In this document: positions 3,778 through 62,658 of the stretch, piece by piece
Layout of the letters: every line of letters begins with the position of its first letter
How positions within the stretch are numbered: position 1 is the stretch's first letter
The notes under the pieces: model-generated
The model's input: only the letters and a program-made list of their open reading frames with translations
The model's database searches: none
What the model was told of the DNA's origin: nothing
Program-made: the position numbers and the translations under genes
Assembly: GCA_033439795.1 (NCBI GenBank)
Contig: JAUTDP010000011.1
Span: forward strand, 1,178,001-1,242,000
Direction of reading: 5' to 3'
From: Sordaria brevicollis
Lineage: Eukaryota > Ascomycota > Sordariomycetes > Sordariales > Sordariaceae
DNA length: 64,000 nt

Positions 3778-5526
3778 GGTGTAAGGGTTGCGGAGGTCAT
3801 TAGACCACCAATGAAAAGAAGAGGTCAAAGCTTGTTTCGAGTTGAGGTCATTCCCGACTGACCAAGAGAGATCGCAAAGGAAGGTAGGTCACCGAATCTG
3901 TAGAGCGGACAAGCGGCGGCAAGAAGAGAGTGATATACAAGACCATTTTGTTCAGCATTACAATATCAAAGAAACCAGACACCGAAGCATGTGCTTCATT
4001 GCCGACAACCATGATGAAAAAGTACTATGTCATGCATGAGCGAACGGAGATGGGGTATGCATGACGGGTGGCCGATTCGATACTGGATGTTGTTATCCGA
4101 GGATGTGGAGCGCAACAAACAGTTGAAGCCTTGCCGTGTGAACGAGAAGGTCATTAAGCAAGTGATTCTGCTGCAATAGAGTCAGCCATAGTATAGTGCT
4201 TTTTGACGCCAAAGTGATTCTGTCAAGTAGACCCCAAGCATCTCAAATCCTGAGAGTCCTTGATTTAGTTTTGGACTTTCTTGTTGACGGAGACAGGTGA
4301 CCCAATCGGCTGGTCAAGGGTTTTCGAGATTGTTGGAGTTGCCGACATGCTGGTATCTTGGGGAGCGAGGACAGCTGAGGTGGGCATGTGAAGAGGAGAA
4401 GGCCTTTTGGAGACACCAAAACAAACCAACGATGATGGCGACGAAAACATGACGTCCCAAGGCACGACACCGTTTTATCCCGACCGCCGAGGAATTGTCG
4501 GTGATCGGAGATTGACGAGAAGCCGCCTCGGTGAGCACATGGACTTCCGCGTTGCCCACTGAAGGGAGATGTGATGATAGGTTTGTCCTCTTTCATCGAG
4601 CTCATTCGAATTATCGTGACTAGGGTCCTGAGGGTCGATTCTTATACATGTATTCCAGGCCCAGCTAGTGGTAGAGCTTCCTCGAGAAGCTTCCAAACTA
4701 AGCGCTGTATCAAGCCTGAAGTCGGCGGGTTTCTGGCGTAAGCTCCGAGTAAAGAAAACTTTCACAGAGGTGTTCCCTCAGTTAGCCATGACAGACCAGC
4801 TTGTGAACTGGGAATCCCGATGTTGTGGTCCTGGCGGAGGCAAGCCTGTTGACGACAAGAGTCATCCTCAACGTAATGTTTTGGGGGACTCTTAGGGTGG
4901 TAACTGTTACATATTCAGCTGCTGGAGCATTGTTAATGCGGCAAACCCGTTCCTGCTTCAAGATTATCTCGGCGCATGGAACATAACGGTCTTGCGTCAC
5001 AAAACGTTGACAACACGTGCAGGTTGTAATACTCGTGGCCTAGATAAGAAGCTCATGGCCCCGTGTTGACAAGACTATCTTACCTGCTCCAGTCAGTAAC
5101 GGCCTCGGGATCGAGTCACTGCGCTGACTGAAAGTGAGCGCCTTACAAAGTCAGTTTGGTTCCAGGTGCTGCTATCGACGAAGGAAAAGGAGCCCGAGGC
5201 CGCTGGGAGTTGTGGTGGAGGCGTCCAAGGCGCTACGACATGCGAGCTGCGAGCTGCGAGAACGTTGTCTTGTCGCGTTAGGCCCGCTGATGCCGCATCG
5301 AGTGTCAAGCCTCCGCCGAAGTGACTTTCATTGACCTAATATCCACGCATTATCCCAGTATTTTCCACGAACAGCCTTTGTTGTTGACGTGGTATCGCTT
5401 AATGGTGATTTCTCCGGTCCTTGGGTAACCTGACGATAAGACTGTTGCCATTGTTGTGTCTGCGACGAATCATTCACACTCCTCGGAAGTGACGTAAGGC
5501 GGGATATGTTTGGGTATAATATGTCT
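3778..5526. other. Intergenic, no gene seen
   Basis: This stretch holds the MFS upstream region and the 3' flank of the prefoldin gene. Short open frames on both strands (for example 4243-4605 and 4475-4765 minus) have no recognisable domains, and some lack an ATG. Nothing further can be supported. Confidence 0.5.
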
Positions 5527-12186: not shown

Positions 12187-14888
12187 ATGAACCACCGAAC
12201 CAAAAACCAACTCATGTGCCGCCTCGAAGGCTGTCCGCACGAGGTCCTCTTCAAAGCTGTCGAGTCACCGGGCTATAACGGAGACCCTCTCGAGCGCCGG
12301 GCCAGCATCATCAGGGATCGGAACGGAAACGTTCTGCCGGGAAGAGGGTCCCCCGCTGGCGGACCGGGAGGGTATAATCGGTATTCGAGTGCGGGGCAGA
12401 GCACGGTTGCTTCGCCTTTTTGTCAGGCTCGTTAGTCCTCACTATTCTTATTGTGTCTTTTTCGTCCTTGTGGTGAATGATCATGGCTTCTGGCTCGACG
12501 GTGGTGTGTTGAGTGATAGTAGATTGATGCGATGTGGAAAGATGTTTCTGACATATGTGACTCGCAAAACAGATACCTGCACCCACTTCTACCAAGACGA
12601 GACTTGTACGCAACTGAAGCCGTCGCATGATTCTGTTTGTGCTTATCGTGAGTTCATATACCTTATTTTGTTTTGTCTTGACCATCTCGGAGTTTGTCAC
12701 TAATAATATGATAGACGCAAGATGTCCCGTCGCCGACTGCAACCAAGCAAGACTCCAATATCTCGATCCGGCCTACGAGTCAAGAGAGACTGGACCGGTT
12801 TATCAGAGATGGGATTACTGTGCTGATCGTGAGTCTCCCCATTGTCTTCCATCCTATTCCGGAGAGCTTATACTGATGCCCAAGCGACATAGACAAGTGC
12901 ACAATCCGGAGATGTCGTCACAAGAAACAGTCCCCCAAGGTTCCGTACTGCAGAGACCGTACGTCCTTCTTAAATGCTATGGATTACTACTTATTGATGT
13001 ACCCGAAAATCGATACTGACTTGTGAGAAATGTAGACATGTGTCAGGCAGATGGATGTAAGAGTCAAAGACTTGACCAGACCCGTAATTTCTGTAAAGAG
13101 CGTGAGTTTACTCTTTTTTCAATCAATGCTTATCTCGATGGGACTGACAACAGTGTTAATCCCTAGATCAATGCAAACAAGAACGTTGCGAAACTATTGT
13201 CGAAGGGAAATACGCTTACTGCACTCTTCACATCAAGTGTGATATTAGCAATTGCAATAGGGCAAGACACAATGTCGCAGGGACGAAGGACTATCTGAGG
13301 TTTTGTATTGATCGTGAGTCCCTTTTACCCTTCCAACCCCGCCACGTTTGACATTTCTGTGAGATATTGACCTTTGCCCTGTGTGCCTGTAGACGCCACT
13401 TGCGCGGTAAACCGCTGCACAGAGTTCAAGATCGAACAGTCCCTCTACTGCGCCAACCATACCTGTATGGAAAGGGGTTGCAGCAAGAGTAGCCAGTCGA
13501 AGCCATTTTGCAGCGAGCGTGAGTTATCCTCTTCCTCCTTTACGGTCCAAGGGTTGGAGTAAGAACCAATGCTAACATAAACCAGACTGCTGTGCGGAAG
13601 TGAACTGTCGATATCCAAGACCTTGGGCAGCGAATCCCAACTCTAGGACAAAGTTCTGTCCGTTGCGTAGGTCATCCCGAGAGCAGTGATTATTGAAGAA
13701 GAGAAGTGCTGACGAAATTACAGACACTTGCCGTGCTCAGGATTGTCCCGAGTTTGTTGATCGGTTAGCCATCTTTTGCAGGACTCGTATGTTTCATCTC
13801 TTCGGGCCTATTGTTTGTTCAAATGTAACGGAAAGCTGACCAGTCCGTAGACGGCTGCTCCAAACCAAAGTGCCACGAGGAAGTCATCGTCGAGGGCTTC
13901 TGTCTTGACCGTATGTCCCTCTAATCCGCCACTTTTCCTCCCTTGCCCGCTTTCCATCCCGTCAATGCCTGTACTAACACTATCAACAGACCTCAAAGCG
14001 CATTACATCAACCAAGGCGAACACAAAGCCCGCGGCACCTCACCCAAAGACGCATCGCCACCGTCCACCATCATCACCCGCCCCAACGCCAACCCACAAC
14101 CACCAACCTTCCCCCGCCGCCTCTCCCAACAATCCCTCACCCGCCCTCCCCTTCCCGGACAACGACCCTCCTCCGTCCTCCTCCACAACCACGCCCACGA
14201 AATCCTCCTCCCGCCCTCCGAACACCCCTCCGAACACGAACACGACCAAAACCACTCCGGAATCAAATTCCTCGACCAACAACAACTTCCCCACCACCAT
14301 CCAACTCACCAAGCCCACGTCGACGACCCCGACCCCGAAGATCTAGACGACGACGAACATGAACTCGACGATCACTTGCCGAACCTCAACCCCAGTAGCT
14401 TGAATAGTCATCTCAGTCACGTCTCCCACAATAGCCATCGCAGCCAGCAAGGACAGGGCCAGAGGGTGCATAGCAGGCAATCCACCCGCGGCGGCGGCCT
14501 GCCCACGAAACACTCGGATTATCCGCGCGACGCCAAACGCTCCGCCAGCGGTGGGGAAAGCGGCCGTAGCTCTCGATCTAGTGAAGCCGTGTCTGCTCTT
14601 TCCGATCATGAGCATGGTGATTTAGAGGCTGAGATAAATAATAATGGGTCGCTGGTGAATGAAAGCAACAGAGGTGGTGGGGGAAGTCCGGGGGATCCGC
14701 CTGAGTATAGCAAGGTTGCTAGTTCGATAATTAGTGTTGGTGGGCATGGGGATACCGGTGAGACAAAGACGGGGACGGAAAGGAGGAGGGAGGAGAGGGA
14801 ACGGAGTAGGAGGGCTGAAAGGGAAGGTGGAGGTGGAATGCCGGGGGCTTTTGGAGGGGAGGGGAAGGAGGATAGTGATGGGTGGTAG
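12187..14888 (+). CDS. Cys/His tandem-module protein, one module per exon
   Basis: I do not recognise this family. Eleven exons join in frame to 646 aa: 12187-12430, 12573-12647, 12715-12828, 12893-12958, 13036-13101, 13167-13313, 13393-13518, 13586-13666, 13724-13786, 13851-13910 and 13990-14888. The first 350 residues hold twelve modules of the form C-x4-C-x(n)-[YF]-C-x2-H; the second module has C-x8-C and is the most divergent, and the first ends C-x3-H. This spacing would suit zinc binding. All ten introns are phase 1 and fall inside the last His codon of a module (C|AY), at residues 82, 107, 145, 167, 189, 238, 280, 307, 328 and 348. Exons 6 and 7 carry two modules each. Residues 350-646 are low-complexity: Pro/His-rich, then acidic, then Ser/Arg- and Gly-rich. 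No signal peptide or membrane helix is seen. The repeat resembles in outline plant WRKY19-like Cys/His repeats, but homology is not shown. A nuclear or scaffold role would be a guess. Confidence 0.8.
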
Positions 14889-15267: not shown

Positions 15268-16050
15268 TCAATCACCAGTATCAACCTCCAAATCAATCTG
15301 CACCCCATTACTAACGCCATAGTCCGCCAAGCTCAACTGATCCTTGAACGGCCTCTCCCCCTGCCTCTTCAGCAGAATCTCATGCGGCTCACGACCAACC
15401 CGCATCGCCACCATGACTTTAAACTGCTTGATCGTGTCCGAGGGAAACGCGGGGATTTGCGCCTTGGTGCCGAGTCGGTCGTTGACAGTTACTATGATCA
15501 TTTCTTCTCCGCCGCCTGATGGGGCAGCTGGGGCTGGGGCAGCTGATGATTTGTCTTTCTTGGGTTTGTCGCGACGAGGAGATCGGTCACGACGAGGGGA
15601 TCTGGATCTGTGACGGTCGCGACGTGGTGAACGATCTCTGTCTCTGTCGCGGTTGTCGTCACGGCGACGTGGTGAGGGGTCGCGAGATCGGTCCCTCCTG
15701 TCGCGGTCACGGTCGCCTCCCCTGTAGCTATCGCCTCTGTAACGATCTCCTCCTCCTCCTCTTTGGTCCCTGTCGCGGTCCCGGTCACGGTCGCGATCAT
15801 CTCTCCTGCGTGGTGAACGGTCGCGGCCCCGGCCTGAATCTCTGTCTCTATCTCTGTTGCGATCGTCGTCCCGATCACGGTTATTCCTCCTGGGCGAGCG
15901 ATCCCTGTAGCCACGCTGTAGACCGGCACGGTCTTGGTTATCGTCGTTGGTGTTGCTGGGCTTTTGCTTCCATTTGAATCCGCCCGTATTGATTTTTGGT
16001 TTTCGCGATGGGGATCGCGACCGCGACCGTGGTCGGTCCGAGTCTGCCAT
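15268..16050 (-). CDS. RS-domain protein with C-terminal Hub1/UBL5 ubiquitin-like domain
   Basis: This is a single-exon 260-aa protein. The start is the ATG at 16050 in the context GCCGCCATGGC. Residues 1-20 are Ser/Arg repeats. About 45-170 is an extreme Arg/Asp/Ser region with several SPRR units, as in SR-type splicing proteins. From residue 184 to the end lies a 77-residue Hub1/UBL5-type fold: MIIVTVNDRLGTKAQI, then SDTIKQFKVMVA, then RPFKDQLSLADYGV. Hub1 binds HIND elements of Snu66/Prp38-type tri-snRNP proteins without covalent conjugation and influences splice-site use; the Asp of the SDTI turn matches the acidic residue used in that contact. The usual C-terminal Tyr-Tyr of Hub1 is absent (the chain ends DLEVDTGD). 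Fusion of the RS tract and Hub1 domain in one chain suggests delivery to the spliceosome. Confidence 0.85.
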   Translation of the reverse strand: MADSDRPRSRSRSPSRKPKINTGGFKWKQKPSNTNDDNQDRAGLQRGYRDRSPRRNNRDRDDDRNRDRDRDSGRGRDRSPRRRDDRDRDRDRDRDQRGGGGDRYRGDSYRGGDRDRDRRDRSRDPSPRRRDDNRDRDRDRSPRRDRHRSRSPRRDRSPRRDKPKKDKSSAAPAPAAPSGGGEEMIIVTVNDRLGTKAQIPAFPSDTIKQFKVMVAMRVGREPHEILLKRQGERPFKDQLSLADYGVSNGVQIDLEVDTGD

Positions 16051-16705
16051 GGCGGCGGTTTGTGTGGGATTGATGTTGTGTTGGGAAGGAAAGGAAGAAT
16101 GATAAAGGTAAATAAACGAAGTGGAAGGTAGCAAGGGACCTTTGGCTGGAGACCGCTGCTTGGCTCAGTGACGGAATTTTAGTGGAGACATTTGGACACC
16201 CGATAAGATAAGGATCACAAAATCTAGAATTCAGACGTCGAGGTCAACACCAGGACAGCCTATCACAGACATCGAGTGAAGAGGACATGACACCAGGTAC
16301 ACCAACGAATTACTGACTTCAATCGATTTCAAGCTTCAGAGAACGGAGGCTATTTAGGTAGGTAGGAATACAAGTTTGGTCCTCCGCCAACCGTCGACAA
16401 GAACCGGATCGGCAACGTATATCACAACCACTTGCTGAACCTGTCTCAATGCCCCTTTTGTAAGATCCAAATGAGAATCGAGTTCGCTTTATAAACAAAG
16501 ACAAATACCATAATTCTTCTCTAGTAAAACTCAAATCAATGCTCCATCCAGTACGCCGTCACATTGCCCATTACCAACGCCAGAGATCAACCACAAGCCG
16601 AAATTTTGCCGGGGAGGTGTATCATACAGACAAACAAACAAGAGAAGAAGGGGAAGACGGAGCGGTAATTAACTCCGTGAAAGTAGAGAGAATTCAAAAA
16701 GGAAA
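16051..16705. other. Spacer between the Hub1 fusion and NOP58
   Basis: This holds the Hub1-gene upstream region and the NOP58 3' flank; the two genes are in tandem on the minus strand. No further gene is seen. Confidence 0.5.
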
Positions 16706-60257: not shown

Positions 60258-60376
60258 ACATACGACCATACCCAGTGGAAAACTCGGGATCCCGTCCGCT
60301 CTCCCATAGATAAGCCACTGAGGGCCAGACTAGTAGTTGGGTCGGTGACGACCAGCGAATCCCTGGTGTTGTATGT
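60258..60376 (+). rRNA. 5S ribosomal RNA
   Basis: This is a 119-nt sequence with complementary ends (ACATACGACC at the start, GTATGT at the end), the GTCCGCTC loop segment, AGTAGTTGGGTCGGTGACGA and CCAGCGAATCCC. All are standard parts of a fungal 5S rRNA and its internal control region. It is followed at once by a run of eight or more T residues (from 60376) as Pol III terminator. Fungi of this group carry 5S genes dispersed singly through the genome instead of in the rDNA repeat, which fits its isolated position. From memory of the Neurospora isotypes, the middle part looks closer to a beta-like variant than to alpha. Confidence 0.93.
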
Positions 60377-60384
60377 TTTTTTTT
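60376..60384 (+). terminator. Pol III T-run terminator of 5S rRNA
   Basis: A run of T residues directly at the 3' end of the 5S gene, the usual RNA polymerase III stop signal. Confidence 0.8.
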
Positions 60385-62470: not shown

Positions 62471-62562
62471 TCGGGTATGGTGTAGCGGTAACATCGTTGA
62501 CTCTCACTTCTTCAGGAGTGACTGCTCTCTCAACAGCCCCGGGTTCGACTCCCGGTATCCGA
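62471..62562 (+). tRNA. tRNA-Glu (CTC) with intron
   Basis: A complete cloverleaf can be folded. Acceptor stem: TCGGGTA with TATCCGA (one G-U pair). D arm: GTGT-AGCGGTA-ACAT. Anticodon stem: GTTGA with TCAAC. T arm: CCGGG-TTCGACT-CCCGG. The anticodon CTC is at 62503-62505. A 22-nt intron (62507-62528) sits after position 37, the canonical place, and contains GGAG that can pair with the anticodon as in pre-tRNA splicing substrates. A T run (62577-62581) follows as Pol III terminator. Confidence 0.92.
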
Positions 62563-62658
62563 GTCTCAAAACGTTCTTTTTGAATTATTTTTTGGCATCC
62601 CTATTCTGATTACTTTAAGCTCATGACTTCGTTTCCTTTCTTTTTTTGAACTCTCTTA

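Follow-up and report, generated by a model that had tools for sequence, protein, structure and literature searches.

We analyzed a 64,000-nucleotide stretch of Sordaria brevicollis DNA, hereafter the window, which contains a gene built of tandem Cys/His modules. Its splice sites were read from the sequence and the joined exons were translated, which gave a gene of 11 exons on the forward strand (12187..14888) with a product of 646 amino acids. This product was identical, over its full length and at 646/646 residues, to a public Sordaria brevicollis protein, B0T20DRAFT_56464 (P0001 in our set); thus, the same protein was reached by independent annotation. Residues 1–348 comprise twelve modules, M0 to M11, all of which end in C-x2-H (12/12). 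An initial annotation of this DNA had described twelve C-x4-C modules. The number twelve was confirmed, but the C-x4-C pair is present in 11/12 modules only, and the second module, M1 (residues 83–107), reads C-x8-C-x10-C-x2-H. The first module is C-x4-C-x62-C-x2-H; its second and third Cys are separated by 62 residues, and across the modules this loop ranges from 9 to 62 residues. Ser, Gly, Pro, His, and charged residues are abundant in the 298-residue tail that follows M11. The features of the gene are as follows.

12187..14888, + strand: whole coding span, 11 exons, 646 aa, identical to B0T20DRAFT_56464 (by splicing and public protein identity)
12187..12430, + strand: exon 1, with the start codon, M0, and the first base of the M0 closing His
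12431..12572, + strand: intron 1, 142 nt, phase 1 in the M0 closing His, C/AT (the slash marks the intron)
12573..12647, + strand: exon 2, M1 (C-x8-C-x10-C-x2-H, atypical)
12648..12714, + strand: intron 2, 67 nt, phase 1 in the M1 closing His
12715..12828, + strand: exon 3, M2
12829..12892, + strand: intron 3, 64 nt, phase 1 in the M2 closing His
12893..12958, + strand: exon 4, M3
12959..13035, + strand: intron 4, 77 nt, phase 1 in the M3 closing His
13036..13101, + strand: exon 5, M4
13102..13166, + strand: intron 5, 65 nt, phase 1 in the M4 closing His
13167..13313, + strand: exon 6, M5 and M6
13229..13231, + strand: M5 closing His codon CAC, unsplit, intron absent
13314..13392, + strand: intron 6, 79 nt, phase 1 in the M6 closing His
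13393..13518, + strand: exon 7, M7 and M8
13458..13460, + strand: M7 closing His codon CAT, unsplit, intron absent
13519..13585, + strand: intron 7, 67 nt, phase 1 in the M8 closing His
13586..13666, + strand: exon 8, M9
13667..13723, + strand: intron 8, 57 nt, phase 1 in the M9 closing His
13724..13786, + strand: exon 9, M10
13787..13850, + strand: intron 9, 64 nt, phase 1 in the M10 closing His
13851..13910, + strand: exon 10, M11
13911..13989, + strand: intron 10, 79 nt, phase 1 in the M11 closing His
13990..14888, + strand: exon 11, last two bases of the M11 closing His and then the 298-residue tail

HUB1/UBL5 is a splicing factor. A 288-aa frame at 15268-16134 on the reverse strand, tail-to-tail with the module gene, matches this ubiquitin-like modifier at residues 209-282 (PDB 3plu, E 9.6e-11). 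The match covers the C-terminal quarter of the frame, and the long N-terminal extension, rich in Arg, Ser, and Asp, has no counterpart in the 93-residue PDB chain. Elsewhere in the window, a 5S rRNA gene lies at 60258-60377 (+ strand), and about 2 kb from it is a tRNA gene at 62471-62563 (+ strand), for which ARAGORN gives an ambiguous anticodon.

The ten introns of the module gene are all GT-AG and 57-142 nt long, and all of them (10/10) are in phase 1 and cut the module-closing His codon after its C (C/AC or C/AT). This is what the initial annotation had reported. The nine internal exons were also confirmed to be symmetric, since every one has a length that is a multiple of 3 and phase-1 introns on both sides (9/9). 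Two of the nine, exons 6 and 7, each encode a pair of modules and have an unsplit CAC or CAT at the expected junction, and the appearance of intron loss noted there was upheld. The chance that ten random introns would all fall in phase 1 in the 12 closing-His codons is 1.6e-22 for the 1044-nt module region, and it is 7e-4 if each intron is already taken to lie in phase 1 of one of the 19 His codons of residues 1-348. Reading through an intron gives Arg as the first residue in 10/10 cases, followed by an in-frame stop in 9/10 and by a frame shift for intron 3 (64 nt). The base before the donor is C at 10/10 introns, as it comes from the split CAY codon, whereas an excerpt of PMC5677156 gives G before the donor in 53% of Fusarium exons; thus, the site is not the usual favored one. 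A one-exon-one-module design had been called very unusual for a compact fungal genome, which agrees with the 1.5-1.9 introns per fungal gene, and 2.53 per Fusarium core gene, given in the same excerpt (PMC5677156). We also looked for a sign of recent intron copying by comparing the introns with their splice-site ends removed. The best pair scored 17 against a median of 19 for the shuffled maxima, so no intron-intron similarity was detectable. Because the introns have no sequence in common, their common descent would be read from position alone.

Orthologues were collected by a protein search, which gave 20 further proteins, and by a profile search built from 13 proteins including P0001, which gave 33 rows including P0001. 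The combined set comprises 33 models (P0002-P0020 and P0022-P0035; P0021 was left out). All of them (33/33) are named after Sordariales genera or families; the order was checked for four names and for Sordaria brevicollis, and the remaining names we take to belong to Sordariales. The protein search depends on shared five-residue words, and the Sordariales-only spread holds within the reach of such a search.

In the alignment with P0001, 18/33 orthologue models retained all 48 ligand residues, and the other 15/33 had faulty stretches or lost ligands. A first count of 48/48 invariant ligands was circular, as the models had been chosen for intact ligands; likewise, the presence of twelve modules in all 18 intact models is true by choice of models. 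The first count was replaced by one over 341 of 396 orthologue module cells, picked by their non-ligand residues only (55 were dropped). Here, ligand residues were kept at 1321/1364 positions and other residues at 4104/8302, and 28 of the 43 ligand misses were gaps. In the Naviculisporaceae models P0022 and P0024, the sole ligand loss was a change of the last closing His of the array to Asp. Co-linear twelve modules with conserved ligands are thus the feature found in the Sordariales twelve-module family (P0001-P0020, P0022-P0035).

The initial annotation had proposed that modules could be gained, lost, or skipped without a frame change, and that module number should be compared across Sordariales. 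The symmetric exons do allow such changes, but we saw no indication that the gene has made use of them. None of the 33 orthologue models had more modules than P0001 by a regular expression that finds 11 modules in P0001 and misses M0. Among the 18 intact models, modules M1-M11 best resembled the module at the same position in other species in 183/198 comparisons, and identity to these positional counterparts was 55%, versus 26% otherwise. Neighboring modules did not resemble each other more than other pairs did (0.25 and 0.25), and concerted evolution of the modules was tested and none was seen. Because modules match their positional counterparts across species, the duplications are old, and all twelve modules probably predate the split of these Sordariales genera.

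Intron sites in the orthologues were traced solely through faults in the public protein models. Reading the alignment rows, we found eight clean absences of whole modules in 6/33 models, as listed here.

M3 absent alone: P0007, P0008, P0034 (M3 is exon 4 in Sordaria brevicollis)
M11 absent: P0034, P0035
M3-M4 absent together: P0035
M7-M8 absent together: P0009 (exactly exon 7 of the Sordaria brevicollis gene)
M7-M9 absent together: P0032

All ends of these absences (16/16) lie at a closing His that is split in Sordaria brevicollis, and none lies at the unsplit M5 or M7; such a result is expected by chance in about 5% of cases even if the ends were independent, which they are not, P0007 and P0008 being close relatives. 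Among the 33 models, Arg takes the place of a closing His in six cells (M2 twice, M3, M4, M9, and M10), as an unspliced C/GT would read, whereas M5 and M7 show no such change. Of these cells, that of M9 (P0033) falls in a frame-shifted stretch, and that of M3 (P0030) could be aligned only in part. Closing His are also exchanged for residues other than Arg, at split and unsplit codons alike. Other gaps begin or end inside modules (P0004, P0006, P0007, P0008, P0009, P0017), long stretches are scrambled in P0006, P0020, P0030, P0033, and P0035, and P0031 stops after M10. Apparent skipping is confined to public gene models, and its cause may be faulty prediction or genuine isoforms. Some of these faults hint that the orthologues may have the same intron sites as the Sordaria brevicollis gene.

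We searched the genome of the window with P0001. Besides the gene itself, only one weak place was found, on contig 23, with two overlapping matches (E 0.06 and 0.18).

G000:C23:3268600-3271300, - strand: second Cys/His array gene (L013), 14 modules and a coiled-coil tail, public model P0036 = B0T20DRAFT_351422

In the model that we built for this gene, there are 14 closing His (one in C-x3-H), and three introns interrupt the module region. All three (3/3) are in phase 1 in the C/AY of a closing His codon, and 11/14 closing codons are unsplit. By our reading of the profile alignment (probability 99.0), these introns fall at the ends of M0, M1, and M8, all of which carry introns in the twelve-module gene; however, with introns at 10/12 boundaries there, a 3/3 agreement is expected by chance in 58% of cases. 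P0036 agrees with our model in the first two introns and differs in the third; relative to our model, it is without one module and a short coiled-coil stretch. This module seems to be missed because P0036 uses a different donor site. It is retained, with its His, in the four orthologues that span this part (P0037-P0040), which favors our model over P0036. Named matches to the second-gene family come from Sordaria, Neurospora, and Pseudoneurospora. A Pfam scan of the second gene gave a TPR_MLP1_2 match under the cut-off (E 0.013), which likely reflects its coiled coil. When the genome was searched with P0036, no third module gene was found among the best-scoring candidates, and two further weak matches corresponded to the coiled-coil part.

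Two genes with phase-1 introns in closing His codons suggest that the layout likely comes from an intron-rich ancestor, followed by intron loss. We propose, with a probability of about two in three, that the module array grew by tandem duplication of one exon, flanked on both sides by phase-1 introns that lie in closing His codons. A single symmetric exon, with such an intron at both borders, would have been duplicated in tandem, and the common ancestor of the two genes would already have had many modules with introns between them. Introns would then have been lost singly without disturbing the codon, leaving unsplit 2/12 closing codons in the twelve-module gene and 11/14 in the second one; the module number of the former may have been held by selection on the ligands. 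The earlier interpretation is partly supported, and the new support comes from the second gene, as modeled here, and from the orthologue faults that fall on the same His.

As for function, each of the twelve C..C..C-x2-H modules is predicted from its sequence to bind one zinc ion. From the conserved Cys/His pattern, and from a sequence in which inspection by eye alone revealed no evident secretion signal, we predict an intracellular zinc-array scaffold. Its zinc modules would line up as binding surfaces for proteins or nucleic acids, and the disordered-looking tail of the twelve-module gene, or the coiled-coil tail of the second gene, might join the array to other molecules.

The main rival to exon duplication is repeated intron gain, in which introns were inserted into an intronless row of modules at the same context, TGY NNN NNN C/AY, for example by a site-preferring insertion. 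It would account for a second gene with only 3 introns for 14 closing His and for introns without common sequence, and P0042, which has a similar layout in one protein, may be intronless. However, recent, related insertions should resemble one another in sequence, which these introns do not, and the C before the donor at split sites departs from the usual G. In addition, as weak evidence, the second gene has its three introns at aligned boundaries that are also split here. We regard intron gain as unlikely.

The zinc sites themselves could be laid out in another register. If each C-x2-H paired with the next C-x4-C (C-x2-H-x1-2-C-x4-C), the array would be a continuous rod with the introns inside the sites. 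Four ligands do fall within 11-12 residues at most borders, M0-M1 being longer, whereas the loops between second and third Cys inside the modules have 9 to 62 residues. This register nevertheless gives eleven units and two loose ends. The exon register, with C-x4-C first and C-x2-H last in the array, gives twelve whole units and is also how the EsV-1-7 repeat unit is read; we find the border-spanning site rather improbable. Even less probable to us is the idea that splicing tunes the array, with deliberate exon skipping producing different numbers of zinc modules and selection keeping the shared phase. The nine internal exons are interchangeable in frame, the eight clean absences in 6/33 models include M3 alone in three and with M4 in one, and a retained intron would turn a ligand His into Arg before an in-frame stop (9/10) or a frame shift (intron 3). 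But the absences may be prediction faults, as short exons are often missed, and messy faults occur in the same orthologue models and in others. Furthermore, 18/33 models retain every ligand, exon skipping is rare in fungi, and symmetric exons follow from duplication without any need of selection for skipping. If splicing did tune the array, the predicted zinc ligation would depend on splicing, each skipped exon would remove precisely one or two whole modules and keep the frame, and one fungal gene could yield a ladder of array lengths.

Exon duplication remains our preferred reading. Building a gene exon by module is a hallmark of animal extracellular proteins, and it is unexpected in intron-poor fungi. 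Here, all introns of one gene interrupt a likely metal-ligand codon after the same base, and the numbers of closing-His introns differ widely between two genes of one genome. Public Sordariales genomes make it possible to test in which order exons were duplicated, introns were lost, and the modules became frozen. A further outcome is a strongly conserved family of Cys/His arrays for which our Pfam scans gave no profile.

The initial annotation did not recognize the family, and this agrees with our searches: no family over the cut-off was found for the module protein in Pfam or NCBIfam, and no solved structure matched among PDB sequences searched with the protein and with the profile. Phage records, viral contigs, and prokaryote genomes gave no accepted relative, the last two being searched by two short peptide patterns. 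Weak Pfam names such as ATAD4 and Dicty_CTDC, among others, had E values of 0.13 or worse and were taken as chance. Among the titles and abstract openings returned by literature searches, nothing described the gene or introns at the histidine codons of modules of this type, and no paper came up for any of the four locus names tried. Two distant look-alikes were detected. P0021 (ENA) has 13 modules by regular expression and a CH domain, with a profile probability of 96.8; its Pfam scan gave the CH domain only, and a search of the window's own genome with it gave only one place, matching its CH-domain part. P0042 has a similar array and a charged, helical-looking tail, with profile probabilities of 98.3 to the twelve-module family and 98.7 to the second gene; the same genome search with it gave nothing. 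The long arrays of P0042 and P0021 (C-x4-C..C-x2-H), the latter placed behind the CH domain, stand outside the named family and hint at a wider eukaryotic family.

We compared the module family with known systems. One, with a member in the same genome, is the B0T20DRAFT_351422 / SMACR_04558 family (P0036-P0041), which has a co-linear C..C..C-x2-H array, an atypical second module, and, in our model, introns in closing His codons. It differs in its 14 modules (one C-x3-H), its coiled-coil tail, and the number of introns in the module region, which is three.

The EsV-1-7 repeat (PF19114), known from the Ectocarpus IMMEDIATE UPRIGHT family, consists of tandem C-x4-C-x(n)-C-x2-H repeats, a spacing shared by our modules (C-x4-C in 11/12, C-x2-H in 12/12). 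However, the twelve-module family, with its loops of 9-62 residues, does not match the PF19114 profile, which was absent from the Pfam matches of 19/19 scanned members at E up to 10, a scan limited by HMMER filters that drop most matches above 0.1, and from those of the window protein. A genome search with PF19114 gave no match, but it gave none in the control genomes either and is thus uninformative. Zf_WRKY19 (PF24906) is a short C-x4-C..C-x2-H unit that is likewise similar in spacing but unmatched in profile: it gave no match in the Pfam scans, and its best genome match (E 0.33) was under the cut-off and on another contig. Because neither profile was over the cut-off, the module family was not filed under them. 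An excerpt of PMC7457493 describes EsV-1-7 genes as patchily spread across eukaryotes and viruses.

The layout of the gene resembles that of the animal class 1-1 modules, in that a module is an exon, phase-1 introns lie at both borders, and duplication is safe for the frame. Those symmetric exon modules, such as EGF and kringle, have been shuffled among unrelated extracellular proteins. Our module exon, in contrast, was found only in a small fungal family whose proteins look intracellular.
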